Shown piece after piece: positions 14,258 through 23,414 of a DNA stretch of 43,508 bases. The position numbers and the translations under genes are program-made. Under the pieces are notes generated by a model that saw only the letters and a list, made by a program, of their open reading frames with translations, was not told the DNA's origin and searched no databases. The DNA is from Melioribacteraceae bacterium (GTDB lineage Bacteria; Bacteroidota; Ignavibacteria; Ignavibacteriales; Melioribacteraceae). The DNA lies in assembly GCA_028282005.1 (NCBI GenBank), contig JANQIV010000250.1:1-43508 (forward strand), in the 5' to 3' direction. Within the stretch, counting starts at the first letter, position 1. Each line of letters begins with the position of its first letter.

Positions 14258-14512
14258 ATGAAAAAGCTCAAATTGAATTTGAAAGACTTAAAAGTTGAGT
14301 CTTTTGAAACTGCTGATGAAGTAAGAGAAAAAAAAGGTACAATTCATGGAAATTTACCTTGGACCGAGACTTGTGACGGGCCTACATGTAATAATGATAC
14401 TTGTTGGGGAACATGTCCAATGAATACTCATTGTGTGCCAACATGTAGACAAACTTGCCCTATAGAACCAACTAACACATGTCTTCCAGGTGAATGGCCT
14501 TGCGGTTCTTAA
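14258..14512 (+). CDS. Lanthipeptide precursor peptide 1 (pinensin-like leader)
   Basis: This 84-residue peptide has the leader MKKLKLNLKDLKVESFET, shared almost exactly with the two other precursors. The L-x-L-x-DLKVESF pattern is that of pinensin-type class I lanthipeptide leaders from Bacteroidota. A short variable linker and KGTIHGNLP precede the core. The core has 9 Cys, seven of them in Thr-Cys pairs (ETC, PTC, DTC, GTC, PTC, QTC, NTC), plus a final PCGS. Thr should be dehydrated by the LanB pair and joined to Cys by LanC. GGAG lies upstream of the ATG. A tRNA-Glu-like gene begins 16 bp after the stop. Confidence 0.9.
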   Translation: MKKLKLNLKDLKVESFETADEVREKKGTIHGNLPWTETCDGPTCNNDTCWGTCPMNTHCVPTCRQTCPIEPTNTCLPGEWPCGS

Positions 14513-14528
14513 GTTAGATTAAGTTTTT

Positions 14529-14599
14529 GGCGCGTTCGTCTAGTGGTAGGACGCCAGTTCTTCAGACTGGAAATGGTGGTTCAATTCCATCACGCGCTA
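14529..14599 (+). tRNA. tRNA-Glu-like gene 1, anticodon UUC, with C33
   Basis: A full cloverleaf folds. The acceptor stem is GGCGCGT/ACGCGCT (7 pairs, with G1-U72). The D arm is GTCT/GGAC with G18-G19. The anticodon stem CCAGT/ACTGG closes the loop TCTTCAG, so the anticodon is UUC at 14561-14563. The variable loop has 4 nt (no base 47, a Glu feature), and the T arm GGTGG/CCATC has loop TTCAATT. A73 is the discriminator base and CCA is not encoded. Position 33 is C, whereas nearly all elongator tRNAs have U33. It starts 16 bp after precursor 1, on the same strand. Confidence 0.9.
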
Positions 14600-14724
14600 C
14601 GAGTTTTTGGTAATAAGATAGGTGTATTCAATAATAATATAATTAATCAAACCTACTGCTGTTAAAAATAGAATAAGTTTTAGTTGTATTTCTGATTCAA
14701 TGAAATAAAATATAGAGGTGAATT

Positions 14725-17670
14725 TTGGCTGAACTCTTCTCAGGCTTTGTCTGCAGAGTTAGTGGCTCTGCAACTAATCATTTTAATAACTTAATTGCTT
14801 CAAAATCATTAGAGATACTTAAAAAAATCAAAGAAAAAGAAGAAGAAATCTCATCATTTAAAGAAGAGATATCAAGACAATTATTTGAAGAAATCTCTAA
14901 CAGTACAAAACAAGTAAATAAAAACAAATTACTCAAAATACGCAGGAAAGCATATAATTTAAAAAAGTTAAAAATAGAAGAACAGAATTTAATAAAAAAT
15001 AAAGACGTGTTTGGAAAGTATAAATTATTATTAACTGCAATTGATGCTAAGAAAGATTTATTGGATAAGTATTACGAAAGCTTTGATTCTGATTATGTGA
15101 GTATAAGAAAACAGTTCAAAGAAGTTATAAAAGAACAGGACTTTCAAAAAGGATTATTGATTTCAAGTAAAGCTTTGTATCAGAACCAGGATATTTATGA
15201 TAAATGTAATAAAACAACATTAAATAGAAAAGAAGAACAATTAGAGAGGGGGTTGCTCAGGTATTATTCTAGAATGAGCATGAAAGCAACACCTTTTGGC
15301 ACCTTTTGCTCAATATTACCTGGTGAGATTATTAATGAAAATAATAAATCAAATGAAATAGTTTTAACTCTTGACCCAACATTAAAGGAAAGCATTGTAA
15401 TAATAAACAAAGGCTTATATGGTAGTATTCTTAGTTACATTGTTAAGAAAAAAGAAATAAAGAAAAACCTTCCTGTAGAATTAAATCAAACCATTGTTAA
15501 TAAAGATGATAAGCTGGTATACTTAACTGCAATTGAAGAGAAAGAAATTTTTCAGCACTTAGATAATAATGAGGTTTTGGAACTCTTTGTTGAGAAATTG
15601 GAGAAATATGATTCTGTATTGTTTAATGATTTGATAAAATTGGTTTGTAGCTTCGAAGAACTTGAAGCCACTGAAGATGAGGCTGAAGAATATATTGATA
15701 AATTAGTTGAAATAGGATTTCTAAGGTTTAAGTTAAATATTCCTGAACAACTCGTTGATTGGGTAGCACCTCTTATTCAACTACTAAATGGAATAGATGA
15801 TCCAGATGCAGTACAAATCAAAGGCCTGCTATTAAACCTTCGCGTAAAAATTGAAGCATACGTTGATGCAGATGTAAAAAGGCGTCAGGAATTACTAATT
15901 GAAATGGATGATGAAGTTAAAAAACTTTTTGAGGATTTAACCATTGAATCTCAGTTAAAAGCAGATCTACCCTTCTATGAAGATGCTACTTCAAAAAGTA
16001 ACTTAATAATTAATGAAGAATATTTAGAATCTGCCTCTAACATATTTTCCGAACTTATAAAAATTACCCAAAAATCGGCGTTCCCAATTACTGATAGCAT
16101 TACAATGAGGCATTTTTACGATGAGCATTACAAAGAAAGTTCAGAGGAAATTTCTTTATTAAAGTTTTATGAAGATTACTACAGAGAACATTACAAAGAA
16201 CATATTGAAAAACAAAGGAAAATTCAGTCAAACCAAAAAGATGACACTCTAAAAGATTATGATGTAACAAATCCATTCAAATTGGATTCTGTTAAAAAAG
16301 TATTAAATGCTCCAAAACAATTCCGCAATCTTATCTCGAAAAAATGGATAAAGAATGGCGAAAATGAAATCCACATTACTTTGAAAGAAATTAAAGAATG
16401 CTACAAAGATATTCCTGAATTAGCAGATTCTTCTTGTTCAGCATCAGTTTTCTCACAAGTAATTTTGCAAAACGGCGGTGATCAAAAAGAAAGAATATTT
16501 ATTCCCGACGCAAAGTACTTGTTGGGCTATGGTAAATATTTTTCGAGATTCCTGAGACTAATGAGTGATGAAGTTCAAAGTAAACTTTATGATGAAAATA
16601 ACTCTATGTCAGATGAAATTATTGCGGAAATTAGTGGCGACGCAAATTTTAACGCAAATCTGCATCCACCGTTAGTAAAATATGAGATCAGTTACCCAAC
16701 AAGTGAAGTTGGTTTAGCAGAAAAACAAATTAAATGTGAGGATTTACTTGTTGTTCCCGATCCGCATAATAAGTTTACACTGAGATTAAAACAAAAAAGC
16801 AGTGGAAAATTTGTTCTGCCTGTCGATTTAGGATTTCTCAATCCGACAATGAGACCACCGCTATTTCAATTGATTGCGAAATTCACTCCCCCTTCAAACT
16901 ATTCACTAGCAATTCCGGATGTACCGGTAATTGATAACTTTGATAAAAATGGGAAAGAATTTAAAGAAAAAATTCAAACAAAAAGAAATAAAGCAGCACA
17001 GCAAATAGTTTTTCGACCACGAATAATTATTGAAGATCAAATTGTAGTTTCAAGAAAAAGCTGGATAATTCCTAAAAAGCATTTTCCGGAAATCGGAAAG
17101 AATGAATCCCTAGCAGACTATTTTATAAAATTAAATAATTGGCGTGAAGAAAATAATATACCAAAAGAAGTGTATCTCAGAATTAAACCATTGCCTTTGC
17201 CGCAGAAAGCAATGTCAGAAAACAAAGAGGATAATAACGAGAACGAAAATGTAAAAACAATTGCTGAGGATAAAAAAGAAGTAAATAATGAAAAAGAAGT
17301 GAAGGAAAAAGAAGAAGTAAATACTGAAAATCAGAACAAAGAAAATGAAGAATCGCAAGAGCAAAATACTGATGACAGTCAGGAGAAGAAAAAGACTAAA
17401 TTTCCAAAGCAATCAAGGGATTATTATAAACCCCAGTATATAAATTTCTTAAATCCGCTTTATGTAAATCTATTCGGAAAACTAACTGTCAATTTGCAAA
17501 ATTATTCTGTAACAATTGAAGAAAGATATCCGGCAGAAAACCAACTATTGTCATTTGATGGGAAGTATTTTGCAAATGAGCAGATCTTTCAAATAAACTT
17601 TCCGAAAAAAAATAATTCAAAATCTAAAAATGTTGTGGAGTTGGCAGATGCAGAAATTACAGGAAACTAA
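14725..17670 (+). CDS. lanB: Lantibiotic dehydratase, glutamylation protein (LanB N-terminal part)
   Basis: This protein transfers glutamate from glutamyl-tRNA(Glu) to Ser/Thr of the precursor. Its 981 residues show the family motif SRMSMKATPFGTFCS at about 182-196 and continue to the SWIIPKKHFPE and PKEVYLRIKP segments of the lantibiotic dehydratase N-terminal domain. The elimination (SpaB_C) domain is missing and encoded by the next gene, a split LanB as reported for pinensins. Residues ~831-895 form a Glu/Lys/Asn-rich insertion before the final YINFLNPLYVNLF strand. The start is TTG, supported by AGAGGTG 5 bp upstream and by an in-frame stop just before it. An unusually charged helical region lies at ~30-100. 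Confidence 0.93.
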   Translation: MAELFSGFVCRVSGSATNHFNNLIASKSLEILKKIKEKEEEISSFKEEISRQLFEEISNSTKQVNKNKLLKIRRKAYNLKKLKIEEQNLIKNKDVFGKYKLLLTAIDAKKDLLDKYYESFDSDYVSIRKQFKEVIKEQDFQKGLLISSKALYQNQDIYDKCNKTTLNRKEEQLERGLLRYYSRMSMKATPFGTFCSILPGEIINENNKSNEIVLTLDPTLKESIVIINKGLYGSILSYIVKKKEIKKNLPVELNQTIVNKDDKLVYLTAIEEKEIFQHLDNNEVLELFVEKLEKYDSVLFNDLIKLVCSFEELEATEDEAEEYIDKLVEIGFLRFKLNIPEQLVDWVAPLIQLLNGIDDPDAVQIKGLLLNLRVKIEAYVDADVKRRQELLIEMDDEVKKLFEDLTIESQLKADLPFYEDATSKSNLIINEEYLESASNIFSELIKITQKSAFPITDSITMRHFYDEHYKESSEEISLLKFYEDYYREHYKEHIEKQRKIQSNQKDDTLKDYDVTNPFKLDSVKKVLNAPKQFRNLISKKWIKNGENEIHITLKEIKECYKDIPELADSSCSASVFSQVILQNGGDQKERIFIPDAKYLLGYGKYFSRFLRLMSDEVQSKLYDENNSMSDEIIAEISGDANFNANLHPPLVKYEISYPTSEVGLAEKQIKCEDLLVVPDPHNKFTLRLKQKSSGKFVLPVDLGFLNPTMRPPLFQLIAKFTPPSNYSLAIPDVPVIDNFDKNGKEFKEKIQTKRNKAAQQIVFRPRIIIEDQIVVSRKSWIIPKKHFPEIGKNESLADYFIKLNNWREENNIPKEVYLRIKPLPLPQKAMSENKEDNNENENVKTIAEDKKEVNNEKEVKEKEEVNTENQNKENEESQEQNTDDSQEKKKTKFPKQSRDYYKPQYINFLNPLYVNLFGKLTVNLQNYSVTIEERYPAENQLLSFDGKYFANEQIFQINFPKKNNSKSKNVVELADAEITGN

Positions 17671-18637
17671 TAAGTGGGAAAGTGTACATATTTTTTTCAA
17701 AGGTGATATTTATTCATACGAATGTGACAGAATAATTTTAGAAGTTGTTTCTCCTTTCGTAAATGAGTGCTTTGATAAAAAAATGATAGAAAAATTTTTC
17801 TTTATCCGGTATTCTGAACTTGGCACGCATGTAAGGCTTAGATTTTGGGGCAAAGAAAAAAACTTGAATGATGAATTCAAGCGATGTTGTTGTGACTATA
17901 TTATTAACTCCATCCCAAAAGAACTAATCAACTATCCATTCAAAAAATTAAATACAATCACAGCAGACAAAATAGAAAAAGAGGACACACCTTATCTGTG
18001 GGTTCCCTATGAGCCTGAGATTGAAAGATATGGTGGTGATGAAGCAATATCTGTTGCTGAAGATTTCTTCTTTTATTCAAGTAATATCGTAATTGATTTA
18101 TTGAACAAAATTGAAAAAGGAAATAATTCTTCCAGGTTAGGTTTTGGCCTTATTTTAATGGTGATTAAGCTATTCAGTTTTTTTGAAGATATAGAGATTG
18201 TAAAGACAATCTTAAATTATTATTCAAAAGGGTATTTAAGTGCTAGAGTGCAAGATGAATCTGAAATTAAAAACATTCAGAATTTATTTGATAGTAGTTT
18301 TGAAAAACAGTCAGAGCACTTGGTTGAATATGTAAATACAATTTGGGAAGCACTAAGTGAAAAAACTGAGCTTGGAGAACCTTTTGACAGCTTTAAAGAT
18401 TATTGCAAGCAAATAAGAGCCCGCCTAGAAATTCTTGCAGAAGAAAATAAAATTATAAAACACAATCAGAAGATTGATGGGACTAAGAATTCACTTTCGA
18501 GAATTTTACCCAGCTATATACATATGACAAACAACAGAATGGGAATTACAATTCCTGAAGAAGCTTATCTCGCTCATATAATTGCACTCGCTTTTGATAA
18601 TTCACTAATTCAAACTAAAACTTATGGTGAACAATGA
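17648..18637 (+). CDS. LanB elimination-domain protein (SpaB_C / thiopeptide-type domain)
   Basis: This protein removes the glutamate from glutamylated Ser/Thr to give dehydroalanine/dehydrobutyrine. Its ~329 residues begin with KWESVHIFFKGD, followed by FFFIRYSELGTHVRLRFWG, the start signature of the SpaB_C domain (W-x-x-x-HIFF and RY...G.H.RLRF). The C-terminal SRILPSYIHMTNNRMGI also fits the family (S...HM..NR). I choose the ATG at 17648 because GGAG lies 7 bp upstream. An alternative ATG at 17630 adds six residues. It overlaps the glutamylation gene by 23 bp and the cyclase gene by 4 bp, so the three should be made together. Confidence 0.9.
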   Translation: MQKLQETNKWESVHIFFKGDIYSYECDRIILEVVSPFVNECFDKKMIEKFFFIRYSELGTHVRLRFWGKEKNLNDEFKRCCCDYIINSIPKELINYPFKKLNTITADKIEKEDTPYLWVPYEPEIERYGGDEAISVAEDFFFYSSNIVIDLLNKIEKGNNSSRLGFGLILMVIKLFSFFEDIEIVKTILNYYSKGYLSARVQDESEIKNIQNLFDSSFEKQSEHLVEYVNTIWEALSEKTELGEPFDSFKDYCKQIRARLEILAEENKIIKHNQKIDGTKNSLSRILPSYIHMTNNRMGITIPEEAYLAHIIALAFDNSLIQTKTYGEQ

Positions 18638-20925
18638 ATAAAGAAATATTAATAAACACCGCGGAAAAAATAGGAAACAGACTTATAAACAATGCCTTAT
18701 GGGAAGGCAATGAATGTACCTGGGAAGTAATGGCTCCAAATAGAGAGGATAGAAGTGCGAAATCTGCTGTTAAAGCTGTTGCCGATGCTGCAGTTTATCA
18801 GGGTGTGGCCGGAATAGTTTTGTATTTAGTGGAATTATTTAGGATTACAAATAATCCTAAAATTAAAGATTGCATAAATGGCGCTTTGGAATATTCATAC
18901 AGAATAGGTAAAGATATGTCAAATGCCTCTTTCGGTTTTCATAGCGGGAGGGTAGGCATTGCTTATGCTTTATTTAAGGCTGGTAGTTTATTTAATGATG
19001 ATAAATTGTTGAATAGATCCGTTGAAGTAATTACACCATTGTATGGAAATGCAAATTCAGATTTAGGGATAGATGTTATTGGTGGAGCAGGTGGGTCTAT
19101 TCAGCCTTTGTTGGTAATTTATGAGTCATTAAATGATGAGAGCATTCTTCAATTAGCTAAAGATCTCGGAGACAATTTAATTCATATTGCCAAAAAGGAA
19201 CAAGTTGGTTTTGCCTGGGGATTTTCGGATACAGATTTTAAAAGACTTTGTGGATATGCTCACGGAGTATCCGGAATTGGTCAAGCCCTACTTGAACTTT
19301 ATAATGTTACCGGTGAAGGGAAATATTTATACGGATTTGAGCAAACAATTGCTTATGAAAATCAATACTACAGTAATGAAAATTTAAATTGGCCGGATTT
19401 TCGGTATAGGCAAGTTAGTGAGTATGTTTATGAAGGAAGAATTGAACAATTAAAACAAGATTTAATAGCTGAAAAAATCCCCCCTTATAACTATAACTAC
19501 ATGTCTGCGTGGTGTCATGGTGCTCCAGGAATAGCATTAAATAGATTGAGAGCTTATGAACTGTTGCATAAAGAAGAATATAAAATTGACGCTATAAATT
19601 CTATTAAAGGAACTGCTCATTCGTTTTGTGAAAATCATAGAAATAACTATTCACTTTGTCATGGGAATGGAGGAAACTGTGAACCTTTGATTTATGGTTC
19701 ACAAGTTTTGAATAATTCAAAATATTATGAAGACGCATTTGAAATTGCAGTAAATGGAATTAAGAAATTCGAAGAAGCAAATGTGCCGTGGCCTTGCGGA
19801 ACAATGGGTTCAGTTTCAGATCCTAGTCTCATGCTCGGCGAAGCGGGCATCGGATATTATCTATTAAGGCTATACTCATCAGATGTCCCATCAGTATTGG
19901 TAATTTCAAGTACAAATAAAATAACCGCCGAATCAGAAGTTGATCAAAGTTACAATACCTTAAAAGAAGATCACATAAAATTTTACTTTGGTGATACTTT
20001 AGAAGGATTAAAGAAATTAAAATTAAATTTTGAATTTGAACTTGAAGATACTGCAAAATGCTACAGAGAAATCACAAACTTTCTTGAAAATCTTGATCCT
20101 GAAATTAAACAATATGCTGAAGATTTATTCCAAGTAGATAAAATTAGATTTCTAAAAACTATCGGAGTTTTTGATTATTCGGAAGAATATAGAGATAGTC
20201 TTATTAAAGAACCGCTTTTTGATATCTCATGGAAAACTTCACAATTTATGTTAGACCCTTTTTCAAAATTAATAGAATGCAAATATGATTGGCAAACTTA
20301 TTTTACTGAAGACGATGAATTAAATCTACCGAATGAAGAAGAGACTTATGTTTTATTGTTTAGAAAAAATAATACAATTCAAAAATCGGTAGTTGGTTCG
20401 CTTCCCGCATTAGTGTTATCCATTCTTAACTCTCCAAGTTCTTTGGAAGAAACTACACGAGAGGTATCAGAATATTTTGATGGTTCGGTTGATTTAAAAA
20501 TGCTTGAAGAAAAAGTCTTGGAACAAATTCAACAGTTCTATCAAGCCGGATTAATAAAGGTTATCAAACATGATGAGGATTTTGAAAAGTTAGTCTCAAA
20601 AATTTCCGATAACCTAAGTTTAGAATACGAAGATACACCTCATTACATTCAAGCTTTTCACAAAATTTTGCAAACAATAAGACACAGCAAAAGCATTTTT
20701 GAGAGTGAAGATGAATTAAATCGATTACATCAATATAGTATGCATATCTCTGATCTAAAGAGGTCATTAAACTTACTTAAGCTAGAAAAACCATTTGAAC
20801 AATTAATCAATAGATTTTTTGATTCTGAGGATATGATTTTGAAAGAGGTTTTATATAAAGAACTGATTTCTGAGCTTGAAATATCGTTTGGTTTTCAATT
20901 TGAATCTTTAGCAGTAAATCAATAA
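18634..20925 (+). CDS. lanC: LanC-type cyclase with ~340-residue C-terminal extension (RRE-like)
   Basis: The 763-residue protein is about 1.8 times the usual LanC length. Residues 1-425 are LanC-like: GYAHGVSGIGQ (His210), SAWCHGAPGIA (Cys294) and LCHGNGGN (Cys342-His343) supply the zinc ligands and catalytic His for thioether formation. The extension carries at ~565-648 a three-strand then helical pattern (EETYVLLFRK, then LPALVLSILNSPSSLEE, then FYQAGLIKVIK). It resembles a PqqD-type RiPP recognition element that could hold the leader. The region between is unrecognised, and a helical tail follows. It overlaps the upstream gene by 4 bp (ATGA). The LanC call is firm; the RRE call is inference. 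Confidence 0.9.
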   Translation: MNKEILINTAEKIGNRLINNALWEGNECTWEVMAPNREDRSAKSAVKAVADAAVYQGVAGIVLYLVELFRITNNPKIKDCINGALEYSYRIGKDMSNASFGFHSGRVGIAYALFKAGSLFNDDKLLNRSVEVITPLYGNANSDLGIDVIGGAGGSIQPLLVIYESLNDESILQLAKDLGDNLIHIAKKEQVGFAWGFSDTDFKRLCGYAHGVSGIGQALLELYNVTGEGKYLYGFEQTIAYENQYYSNENLNWPDFRYRQVSEYVYEGRIEQLKQDLIAEKIPPYNYNYMSAWCHGAPGIALNRLRAYELLHKEEYKIDAINSIKGTAHSFCENHRNNYSLCHGNGGNCEPLIYGSQVLNNSKYYEDAFEIAVNGIKKFEEANVPWPCGTMGSVSDPSLMLGEAGIGYYLLRLYSSDVPSVLVISSTNKITAESEVDQSYNTLKEDHIKFYFGDTLEGLKKLKLNFEFELEDTAKCYREITNFLENLDPEIKQYAEDLFQVDKIRFLKTIGVFDYSEEYRDSLIKEPLFDISWKTSQFMLDPFSKLIECKYDWQTYFTEDDELNLPNEEETYVLLFRKNNTIQKSVVGSLPALVLSILNSPSSLEETTREVSEYFDGSVDLKMLEEKVLEQIQQFYQAGLIKVIKHDEDFEKLVSKISDNLSLEYEDTPHYIQAFHKILQTIRHSKSIFESEDELNRLHQYSMHISDLKRSLNLLKLEKPFEQLINRFFDSEDMILKEVLYKELISELEISFGFQFESLAVNQ

Positions 20926-20939
20926 TTGGGCGGATTGTA

Positions 20940-21647
20940 ATGAATAATAAATCTGTTTTAGAAAATGAAACTGGTATCAATACTAATGACTTGCACTTAA
21001 AAATAGTAAATGATCTTACAAAAAAGTTGAAAACCAACTTCCCTAATGCCGGAATAGGGATATCAGGCTCAGTTGCAGCAAAAAAACATTCGAGGAAAAG
21101 TGATATTGATTTATTGCTGGTTGATAAAACCTTTAAAAAAAATAAACAGTTTACTTTCTTCAATTATGGTGTAGATATTAATCTTCTTTGTTTAAATCCT
21201 AACTTACTTGAGAATCAAATAAGTGTTTGGAGTTTTTTATTTAACTCACAGCATTTAGGCTATATAACCAGCGCAAATATAATTTTTGACCCAGAAAGCT
21301 CCCTTGGTGAACTGAAAGAAAAAACAAAAGAAATAATTATTCAAAGGAAATCTTCCGCACAACAAGTATTAATGATCGTAGAAGAACAAAAAGAAATAAT
21401 TATTAAAGAAATAGAAAACAATGGTTGTAACTGTTCAAAGTCTGTTGAACTGATTAACCTTCTTATTAGCCAATGGTTTTTGCTTGAAGGGATTTTGCTA
21501 AATAATAAGAGAGAACATCAGAATTCGTTTAATCTTATAAAAAAGTATGATTACAAAATGTACGAATCCTTGAAGCTGGCATTGTTGCAATCAATTAAAA
21601 ATGAGGAAGTTTTGAATCACATTGAAACCCATTTGCAAAAGAAATGA
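20940..21647 (+). CDS. Nucleotidyltransferase-fold protein in the lanthipeptide cluster
   Basis: This 235-residue protein shows the nucleotidyltransferase core motif GISGSVAAKKHSRKSDIDLL at about residues 40-59. That gives GS and the DxD metal-binding pair, with a third acidic residue in YGVDINLL near 76. All three carboxylates of an active enzyme are therefore present. The C-terminal half is helical. Related folds adenylylate small molecules or proteins, or add nucleotides to RNA ends; the sequence does not tell which. It starts 14 bp after lanC with GGGCGG-like spacing and precedes the second peptide-tRNA cassette. Given the tRNA genes without CCA, an action on tRNA is one testable idea. 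Confidence 0.8.
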   Translation: MNNKSVLENETGINTNDLHLKIVNDLTKKLKTNFPNAGIGISGSVAAKKHSRKSDIDLLLVDKTFKKNKQFTFFNYGVDINLLCLNPNLLENQISVWSFLFNSQHLGYITSANIIFDPESSLGELKEKTKEIIIQRKSSAQQVLMIVEEQKEIIIKEIENNGCNCSKSVELINLLISQWFLLEGILLNNKREHQNSFNLIKKYDYKMYESLKLALLQSIKNEEVLNHIETHLQKK

Positions 21648-21696
21648 AAGCAAATTATTAGGACTTTGAGCAAAATCGTATATAAAAGTATTGTGT

Positions 21697-21760
21697 TAAG
21701 TAAAAAATAGTTGATAAAGGGGCTGTGCTGACAGCCTAATAACCAACTAAAAACAAATAA
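21697..21760 (+). promoter_or_regulatory. Hairpin in the leader of the second precursor gene
   Basis: GGCTGT (21721-21726) pairs with ACAGCC (21731-21736) around the tetraloop GCTG. Flanking GTTG and CAAC can extend the stem with an internal loop. It is the most GC-rich spot in this AT-rich gap and lies about 36 bp upstream of precursor 2. There is no T-run after it, so it is more likely an mRNA 5' structure or processing site than a terminator. Confidence 0.4.
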
Positions 21761-21772
21761 AAAGAGGTTTTT

Positions 21773-22099
21773 ATGAAAAAGCTAAAACTTGATTTGAAAG
21801 ATTTGAAAGTTGAATCTTTCGAAGCAGTAACACTAAGGAATATTAAAAAAGGAACTGTAGCTGCTAATGCGCCATTGACAGAAGGTTGTCCGCCTACAGA
21901 TGGTCAAACATGCCCGAACACTTGCTATAATACTTGTGCAAACACATGTGCAAATACATGTGGCGGAACTTGCCCAAATAATACTTGTGCTAATACTTGT
22001 CCTGATACTTGTTGGCCTGAAACTCAAGCTGAATGCGATCCTGATACTTATGCAACATGTCAAGACCCGACATATTGCGGATCATGGTTATGTAGTTAA
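21773..22099 (+). CDS. Lanthipeptide precursor peptide 2 with NTC-repeat core
   Basis: This 108-residue peptide has the leader MKKLKLDLKDLKVESFEA, then KKGTVAANAPLTEG. The core has 14 Cys, ten of them in Thr-Cys pairs. Its centre is a near-regular run of NTC units (QTCPNTCYNTCANTCANTC) followed by more GTC/NTC/DTC units, and it ends GSWLCS. The spacing suggests nested or ladder-like methyllanthionine rings between a dehydrated Thr of one unit and a Cys of another. GAGG lies upstream of the ATG. A tRNA-Glu-like gene starts 9 bp after the stop. Confidence 0.9.
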   Translation: MKKLKLDLKDLKVESFEAVTLRNIKKGTVAANAPLTEGCPPTDGQTCPNTCYNTCANTCANTCGGTCPNNTCANTCPDTCWPETQAECDPDTYATCQDPTYCGSWLCS

Positions 22100-22108
22100 T
22101 CAACTACG

Positions 22109-22180
22109 GGCGCGTTCGTCTAGCGGCCAGGACGTCAGTTCTTCAGACTGGAAACAGTGGTTCGAATCCACTGCGCGCTA
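22109..22180 (+). tRNA. tRNA-Glu-like gene 2, anticodon UUC, with C33
   Basis: The acceptor stem is GGCGCGT/GCGCGCT (G1-U72 and U7-G66 wobble pairs). The D arm is GTCT/GGAC with loop AGCGGCCA. The anticodon stem TCAGT/ACTGG closes the same loop, TCTTCAG, as copy 1, giving UUC at 22142-22144 and C33. The variable loop is 4 nt. The T arm AGTGG/CCACT has a standard TTCGAAT loop. A73 is present; the next bases are CAG, so CCA is not encoded. It starts 9 bp after precursor 2 on the same strand. Confidence 0.9.
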
Positions 22181-22235
22181 CAGGTTAAAATTATAACAAA
22201 GTGTAGTTGAAGTAAATCCAGAAATATTTTGCCAA

Positions 22236-22946
22236 ATGAACATAAATGATAACTATAAAAAGTATCGAGAAGATACTATAAACATTGAAGGCATTCCTTA
22301 CCCAATTTATGATGGTGGTTTGAGATTTTTTGAGCAGACAAGAAGAATAAAAAAATGGCCTATCAATAACGGTGATTTAGTTGTTGATGTTGGATGCGGC
22401 CATTTACCATTTCCATATGCTACCATATTACTTGACAAAGATATGAAAGATGGCAAAGAAAGGTTTTACTTTCCAATTCCGCATGATGAAAGACAGTTAA
22501 TAGAAGCTGATATTGAACAAGGATTACCATTTAAAAATAAAGAAATAGACTTTTTGTATTGCAGTCATACACTTGAACACTGCAATGACCCGGGATTTGT
22601 AATTAGCGAAATAGAAAGAGTAGCTAAAAGAGGTTTTATAGAAACTCCAAATTTAATATTTGAAATTCTCTTTGGTGGAAATGATGACACTCATAAATGG
22701 GTTACAGATTACTGTGAAGATTCTGATGTTTTGAATTTCAGGAAACTTAAGAGAAAAGAATTATCAGCAATTAAAAGAAGAAAAGAATTAGGGAATGTCA
22801 TTTATAAATTATTTAAGGATAATGAAAAACCTTTTAGGCTTCACCTAACAGCATATTGGAAAAACCAGGATGTTTTCACTGAATGTTTTTTGTGGGAAGA
22901 TAAAATAAATTTTAATGTTGTTAAAGAGGGGGTGCTTAGCTATTAA
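22236..22946 (+). CDS. Class I SAM-dependent methyltransferase
   Basis: This 236-residue protein has the SAM-binding motif LVVDVGCGHLPFP near residues 48-60. The following segments are IEADIEQGLPFKNKEIDFLY near 87-106 and SHTLEHCNDPGFVISEIERV near 108-127, typical of Methyltransf_11-type folds. It lies between cassettes 2 and 3, 55 bp after tRNA 2 and 41 bp before precursor 3. It may methylate the lanthipeptide (N-terminus, C-terminus or side chain) or another molecule. Substrate cannot be read from the sequence, and a tRNA substrate is also conceivable. Confidence 0.85.
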   Translation: MNINDNYKKYREDTINIEGIPYPIYDGGLRFFEQTRRIKKWPINNGDLVVDVGCGHLPFPYATILLDKDMKDGKERFYFPIPHDERQLIEADIEQGLPFKNKEIDFLYCSHTLEHCNDPGFVISEIERVAKRGFIETPNLIFEILFGGNDDTHKWVTDYCEDSDVLNFRKLKRKELSAIKRRKELGNVIYKLFKDNEKPFRLHLTAYWKNQDVFTECFLWEDKINFNVVKEGVLSY

Positions 22947-22987
22947 GCAACCGGACTAATAATAACAAAAAACTAAAGGAGGCTTTT

Positions 22988-23257
22988 ATGAAAAAGCTAA
23001 AATTAAACTTGGAAGACTTGAAAGTTGAGTCTTTTGAAATCAATAATTCTAAAAACATGAAAGGTACCGTTAATGGCAATTTACCACCTCAATGTGATGA
23101 CAATTCTGGCGGTGGCGGCGGTGGCGGTGGCAGCTTGACAGGAGGGTGTACTTGCTTGGGGAATTCTTGCGGATATAGTAGATGTCCTGAAATGTGTGTA
23201 TCACAATACACTGATTGTGGTTCATGCCCGACAGAATGCGGTTATCCTTGTGTTTGA
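22988..23257 (+). CDS. Lanthipeptide precursor peptide 3 with polyglycine stretch
   Basis: This 89-residue peptide has the leader MKKLKLNLEDLKVESFEI and the shared MKGTVNGNLPP segment. The core differs from the other two: eight consecutive Gly (23107-23130 region), then SLTGGCTCLGNSCGYSRCPE and a Cys-rich end, with about 10 Cys in total. Unlike cores 1 and 2, only one Thr-Cys pair is present and Ser is as common as Thr, so both lanthionine and methyllanthionine are possible. AAAGGAGG lies 7 bp before the ATG. A tRNA-Glu-like gene starts 18 bp after the stop. Confidence 0.88.
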   Translation: MKKLKLNLEDLKVESFEINNSKNMKGTVNGNLPPQCDDNSGGGGGGGGSLTGGCTCLGNSCGYSRCPEMCVSQYTDCGSCPTECGYPCV

Positions 23258-23275
23258 TTGACAGATAAAATCTTT

Positions 23276-23348
23276 GGCGCGTTCGTCTAGTGGCTTAGGA
23301 CGTCCCGTCTTTAGCGGGGAAACAGTGGTTCGAATCCACTGCGCGCTA
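23276..23348 (+). tRNA. tRNA-Glu-like gene 3 with UUU anticodon and C33
   Basis: The body matches copy 2: acceptor GGCGCGT/GCGCGCT with U72, D arm GTCT/GGAC, T arm AGTGG/CCACT with TTCGAAT loop, 4-nt variable loop, A73 and no CCA. The anticodon stem is TCCCG/CGGGG (U27-G43) and the loop is TCTTTAG. The anticodon is thus UUU at 23310-23312, again with C33. A tRNA finder may label it Lys by anticodon, but the body is of the Glu type. It starts 18 bp after precursor 3 and 66 bp before the ABC exporter gene. Confidence 0.85.
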
Positions 23349-23414
23349 CAAAATTAATAAAATAGTTAAAAATCCAAAGATAAAAACTAATAATAATTGT
23401 AAATTACAGTAATT

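Follow-up and report, generated by a model that had tools for sequence, protein, structure and literature searches.

Results

Gene content of the cluster

The window, by which we mean the whole 43,508-nucleotide stretch of DNA analysed, belongs to the 4.09 Mb genome of a Melioribacteraceae bacterium (phylum Bacteroidota; G000) and carries a plus-strand gene cluster in which each of three small precursor genes is followed by a tRNA gene (Table 1). Judged by its genes, namely a split dehydratase, a LanC-like cyclase, and a leader attached to a Cys-rich core with Ser and Thr, the cluster qualifies as a class I lanthipeptide cluster of the pinensin type. The Cys-rich precursors have the leader MKKLKL(N/D)L(K/E)DLKVESFE and, by residue counts, 13–20 Ser and Thr each; only 5–7 codons per precursor specify Glu. 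Two of the three exceed the cut-off of the pinensin leader model NF038180; precursor 2 has no match to this model, but the same MKKLKLDLKDLKVESFE leader is recognizable by eye. The sequence-only reading of this DNA had described a split LanB, and the PF04738 and PF14028 matches, representing the glutamylation and elimination domains of the dehydratase, indeed lie on adjacent ORFs. The ABC exporter gene is directly 3′ of a cassette tRNA in all three clusters considered here (the window, G018 and G024), and the subtilisin-like protease is the probable leader peptidase.

Table 1. Features of the lanthipeptide gene cluster in the window.
Feature	Position	Strand	Remarks
Lanthipeptide precursor 1	14258..14512	+	84 aa, 9 Cys, pinensin-type leader; NF038180 36.3 bits (cut-off 24)
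Cassette tRNA 1	14529..14600	+	Glu-like, anticodon UUC, loop UCUUCAG (C33), G1·U72, A73, U51-A63
LanB glutamylation part (Lant_dehydr_N) of split LanB	14725..17670	+	PF04738 135 bits
LanB elimination part (Lant_dehydr_C)	17630..18637	+	PF14028 147 bits
LanC-like cyclase, ~340 additional C-terminal residues	18634..20925	+	PF05147 199 bits
Nucleotidyltransferase-fold protein (predicted)	20940..21647	+	PF01909 25.3 bits
Lanthipeptide precursor 2	21773..22099	+	108 aa, 14 Cys
Cassette tRNA 2	22109..22181	+	Glu-like, anticodon UUC, C33, G1·U72, A73, U51-A63
Class I SAM methyltransferase-like protein, separating cassettes 2 and 3	22236..22946	+	PF08241 37 bits
Lanthipeptide precursor 3	22988..23257	+	89 aa, 10 Cys, Gly-rich spacer; NF038180 32.2 bits
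Cassette tRNA 3	23276..23349	+	Glu-like body, anticodon UUU, C33, G1·U72, A73, U51-A63
ABC exporter	23415..25211	+	ORF; 67% identical in G018; G024 counterpart L268:4849-6639
HlyD-like adaptor	25208..26386	+	ORF and sequence matches
Subtilisin-like protease	26389..27192	+	NF049966 (QhpE) 113 bits, below cut-off 165; conserved in G018

A tRNA gene follows each precursor

ARAGORN and Rfam model RF00005 agree on exactly three tRNA genes in the window, all on the plus strand, with Rfam scores of 58, 46.7 and 45.1 bits for cassette tRNAs 1–3 (cut-off 29), confirming the earlier observation that each precursor is followed by a foldable tRNA gene. All have a complete cloverleaf and an acceptor compatible with a CCA end. 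The spacing of 9–18 bp on the same strand had also been read correctly: from the precursor stop codons, which end at the last position of each precursor in Table 1, the gaps to the tRNAs measure 16, 9 and 18 bp. The description of all three as tRNA-Glu-like stands for the body of each molecule but not for the anticodon of cassette tRNA 3, which is UUU, and ARAGORN calls this gene Lys. No terminator-like site was found on the plus strand between a precursor and the next gene. A chance arrangement was dismissed because only 23 of the 26 tRNAs detected in the genome lie outside the window, the arrangement recurs in two other genera, and the tRNA helices covary.

Conservation in related clusters

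The precursor-tRNA arrangement is conserved across three genera of one family, in a small sample of three clusters from metagenome draft assemblies. Within the order as searched, G018 is the one other genome with a close LanB (46% identity). Its genes run LanB-N, LanB-C, LanC, nucleotidyltransferase, precursor, tRNA, ABC exporter, HlyD and protease, with the tRNA 22 bp from the sole precursor. A search with the pinensin leader model recovered the G024 cluster (L268), in the order precursor, tRNA (12 bp on), LanC, precursor 2, S41-like peptidase, tRNA 2, ABC exporter, HlyD and protease; one of its two precursors adjoins a tRNA, and the second tRNA of the same cluster lies 2 kb on. The S41-like peptidase gene (L268:2736-4721) is located between precursor 2 and tRNA 2, which starts 4 bp after the peptidase stop codon. 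No LanB is visible in the G024 cluster because its contig begins at the first precursor, and none was found elsewhere in that assembly. A tRNA-Glu pattern with C33 that also required U34, and so was blind to G024 (C34), matched only G000 and G018 among 395 genomes of the phylum; these are the two genomes with closely related LanB proteins.

Eleven pinensin-type precursors from more distant clusters in the class (two in L182, three in L185, one each in L186 and L187, and four in G353) have no adjacent tRNA. The trait therefore marks a subtype rather than pinensin-type clusters in general, and the need for such tRNAs would be specific to that subtype. The sequence-only reading would have been refuted had related clusters not shared the link between precursor and tRNA; the link holds in the two closest clusters (1 of 1 precursors in G018, 1 of 2 in G024) and fails in the more distant ones.

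Selection on the tRNA fold and origin of the cassette tRNAs

Of the 21 cloverleaf pairs, 20 are intact in all six cassette tRNAs, and 98.4% of pair cells are kept, with 15 cells in which both sides have changed and a covariation score reached by none of 500 shuffles; the helices also covary when only a four-copy set is used. The sole failing pair, 51-63, is broken in both G024 copies (C·C and G·A). In the anticodon stem, pairing is conserved, the sequence less so. This pattern indicates that the cassette RNAs are under selection as tRNAs.

As a housekeeping reference we used 42 distinct tRNA-Glu sequences of the order, among the matches listed. The order's housekeeping tRNA-Glu(CUC) has the acceptor GGCGCGU/ACGCGCU with G1·U72 and A73 (27/27 distinct sequences among the matches listed), and its tRNA-Glu(UUC) has C72 (15/15, among the matches listed). 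The cassette tRNAs match the acceptor and D-arm of tRNA-Glu(CUC), and by this comparison derive from the lineage's tRNA-Glu(CUC) as specialised copies, an origin not noted in the sequence-only reading. Import from another class together with a foreign LanB had been suspected, as the genome's tRNA-Glu(UUC) has C72, and was rejected once a search across the order showed this acceptor stem, with U72 and A73, in the lineage's tRNA-Glu(CUC); with both acceptor and D-arm present in the order's tRNA-Glu(CUC), import is unnecessary. Ordinary CUC and UUC tRNA-Glu genes are still present in G018. An ordinary tRNA-Glu(CUC) was not found in the G000 assembly, perhaps owing to missing data in an incomplete assembly, or else to replacement.

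Changed and retained positions

The cassette tRNAs depart from their housekeeping relatives at two sites. Positions 32-33 are U32-C33 in 6/6 cassettes versus C32-U33 in 42/42 housekeeping sequences among the matches listed, and all copies have in common the unusual anticodon loop UCYUYAR. Pair 51-63 is U-A in four copies, C·C in one and G·A in one, versus G-C or C-G in 42/42 housekeeping sequences among the matches listed. All six lack both U33 and the standard 51-63 pair, two features expected of a translation-competent tRNA and present in the lineage's housekeeping tRNAs. U33 gives the anticodon loop its U-turn. This turn has a role in A-site acceptance (PMC11231383), and EF-Tu binding is most strongly influenced by pairs 49-65, 50-64 and 51-63 (PMC8219837). 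In the staphylococcal tRNA-Gly used for cell-wall synthesis, A51-U63 replaces G51-C63 and EF-Tu binding is weak (PMC4052509, PMC8007984). By analogy with A51-U63, U51-A63 would weaken EF-Tu binding, and loss of the strong pair at 51-63 is a property that the cassettes share with this dedicated tRNA (PMC4052509).

We had considered C33 alone as proof of exclusion from translation, but this argument is weakened by tRNA-Glu with C33 in Sulfurimonas, in scattered bacteria and on phage contigs. More weight therefore falls on positions 33 and 51-63 having changed together in this lineage. In each of two Sulfurimonas genomes, a single tRNA-Glu fits the pattern, and it carries C33. The Sulfurimonas/Sulfuricurvum loci (L028, L033 and others) contain an apparent housekeeping tRNA-Glu(UUC) with C33 and the loop ACUUCAU, which departs from the near-universal U33, and tRNA-Glu with C33 also occurs in other scattered bacteria. 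Some viral contigs (L144-L163) carry tRNA-Glu with C33, several also with G1·U72 and A73.

Other positions are retained: U72, A73, U35, A37, U11-A24, U13-G22 (an augmented D-stem) and G18-G19 in 6/6 cassettes, and C36 in 5/6, copy 3 having U36. The anticodons are UUC, UUU and CUC, so that 5/6 copies retain a Glu anticodon (U/C34, U35, C36). The variable region has four bases in 5/6 and five in the first G024 copy (G024a), against the Glu determinant delta-47. U72 and A73 are reportedly determinants for the dehydratase MibB. Glutamyl-tRNA is the co-substrate of class I dehydratases, with the acceptor stem as a major recognition element (PMC9993889). The identity elements of GluRS include U35, C36, A37, U11-A24, U13-G22 and delta-47 (PMC9976931). 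Since U36 removes a strong GluRS determinant, copy 3 may accept Glu poorly, carry Lys instead, or stay uncharged. There is one GluRS gene (gltX) and one GlnRS-like gene per genome and no dedicated synthetase; charging must therefore use the housekeeping GluRS.

Discussion

Taking these features together, we favour, with a probability of roughly two in three, an account in which the cassette tRNAs are reserved for donating glutamate to the LanB dehydratase that the cluster encodes. The precursor and tRNA would be co-transcribed and the tRNA excised by tRNA processing enzymes, such that each substrate transcript also yields a tRNA, which the single cellular GluRS would charge with Glu. With the changes at pair 51-63 and position 33, EF-Tu and the ribosome would use it only poorly, and translation would not drain the resulting Glu-tRNA; the split LanB would recognise the U72/A73 acceptor end and spend the Glu on activating the many Ser and Thr residues of the cores. 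The sequence-only reading had proposed a dedicated pool of glutamyl-tRNA, and this proposal gains support, at the level of sequence, from the retention of GluRS and acceptor-stem features alongside changes at sites used in translation (33; 51-63). With slightly less assurance, we consider that the cluster has probably domesticated a housekeeping tRNA as an encoded cofactor: a glutamate tRNA per peptide gene, altered at the EF-Tu and decoding sites and serving a tailoring enzyme rather than the ribosome.

Proximity of the tRNAs to the precursors could also reflect RNA processing. If the fold were kept for cutting by RNase P and RNase Z, the cuts would free from the operon a short precursor mRNA whose 3′ end is fixed and so set precursor dosage, and charging would be irrelevant. 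The tRNA position 9–22 bp after the stop codon, the lack of a terminator-like site between precursor and next gene on the plus strand, and the conservation of anticodon-stem pairing over sequence are all consistent with such punctuation. However, any tRNA would do for this purpose, yet all copies are Glu-like with U72/A73, the loop UCYUYAR and an altered 51-63 pair; cutting does not need mature-like features in the loops and discriminator, and the second G024 tRNA follows a peptidase gene rather than a precursor. We regard this explanation as unlikely.

Less likely still is that the tRNAs work by another route, either as regulators that bind GluRS or LanB uncharged, or as carriers of another amino acid (Lys, for copy 3) in some transfer reaction, PEARL-like or otherwise. 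Compatible with this idea are the UUU anticodon of copy 3 and the unexplained nucleotidyltransferase-fold protein, which is encoded in both LanB-linked clusters and was not seen in distant ones; PEARLs, moreover, use aminoacyl-tRNA in peptide extension and read the acceptor stem and anticodon arm (PMC12550832). That LanB-derived ligases read the anticodon arm may explain the conserved unusual loop of the cassettes. Nevertheless, glutamylation and elimination are divided here between two LanB proteins, in keeping with an ordinary dehydratase, whose chemistry needs Glu-tRNA, and the Glu anticodon is kept in 5/6 copies.

It is very improbable that the cassettes are extra decoding tRNAs supplying Glu (or Lys, for copy 3) to translation of the cluster. 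Their anticodon triplets (UUC, UUU, CUC) are intact, and C33 does occur in what appears to be the housekeeping tRNA-Glu of Sulfurimonas. Against this, the precursors have just 5–7 Glu codons to decode, U33 and the strong 51-63 pair are lost in 6/6 cassettes and kept in 42/42 housekeeping tRNAs among the matches listed, and G018 also has normal CUC and UUC tRNA-Glu. Least credible is a scenario in which the cluster integrated at a tRNA-Glu gene and left recent duplicates of it as attachment-site debris, or in which the tRNAs arrived with the cluster from another class. In its favour, tRNA genes often serve as integration sites, and U72/A73 is also found in many tRNA-Glu from other classes of the phylum. 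Conservation and covariation nonetheless largely refute this origin: the copies are complete, covary and sit at corresponding positions in clusters with LanB proteins of just 46% identity, and the order's tRNA-Glu(CUC) itself has this acceptor and D-arm.

To our knowledge, no described cluster of the pinensin type encodes a tRNA per precursor, and we know of no cluster-encoded tRNA in PEARL systems. In the open-licence literature searched, there was no description of cluster-encoded tRNAs in RiPP or other clusters. Pinensin-type class I clusters resemble that of the window in leader (NF038180), split LanB, LanC and exporter, and glutamyl-tRNA-dependent dehydration is established LanB chemistry; unlike the window cluster and its relatives, the eleven other precursors examined lack a tRNA. 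The activity of MibB, a LanB, is reportedly limited by the acceptor stem of tRNA-Glu and rescued by supplying the right tRNA. The heterologous MibB and epilancin systems, in which the producer's tRNA-Glu and GluRS are co-expressed, are comparable in that a LanB limited by this acceptor stem is rescued by the right tRNA (PMC9993889), but they represent laboratory engineering with an ordinary housekeeping tRNA, whereas here the cluster carries altered tRNAs. PEARLs are LanB-derived, consume aminoacyl-tRNA and read its acceptor stem and anticodon arm, but are without the elimination function (PMC12550832). The non-proteinogenic tRNA-Gly of S. aureus, used for the peptidoglycan bridge, is likewise a specialised isoacceptor for a non-ribosomal tRNA-dependent enzyme and has lost the EF-Tu pair G51-C63 (PMC4052509, PMC8007984). 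It differs in amino acid (Gly rather than Glu), is not reported to be linked one-to-one to a peptide substrate gene, and has an altered G18-G19, which the cassettes keep; a change at its position 33 is not reported. Class I lanthipeptide biosynthesis occurs here in a variant form whose tRNA is likely dedicated; this tRNA would act like the staphylococcal tRNA-Gly, with no relation to it in amino acid or genetic linkage.

Tailoring enzymes that depend on tRNA have to secure it in charged form in the face of abundant EF-Tu. Their competition with EF-Tu has been discussed (PMC4810233), and the diversion of charged tRNA from translation has been called "somewhat unclear" (PMC4052509); the pathway described here, a natural one, seems to have solved this problem with private tRNAs encoded beside the substrates. 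The donor account can be tested through what it predicts for EF-Tu binding, decoding and LanB specificity and, if correct, would provide ready-made tRNAs for class I lanthipeptide production in other hosts, where tRNA is a known bottleneck (PMC9993889). Genes for tRNAs near RiPP precursors deserve examination during cluster annotation.

Two other proteins of the cluster have unusual features. The nucleotidyltransferase-fold gene lies between LanC and a precursor both in the window and in G018 (L025:7768-8487), the only two among the clusters examined to contain it; it was not found in the distant pinensin clusters examined. Its product matches NTP_transf_2, with weak ANT(4′)-like and HalB-like matches; a PDB search gave no significant match, and the structure prediction, with a mean pLDDT of 48.9, was too poor for use. 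This protein could act on tRNA. The ~340 C-terminal residues of the LanC-like cyclase match no Pfam family, and similar long forms of the cyclase are encoded in G018 and G024.
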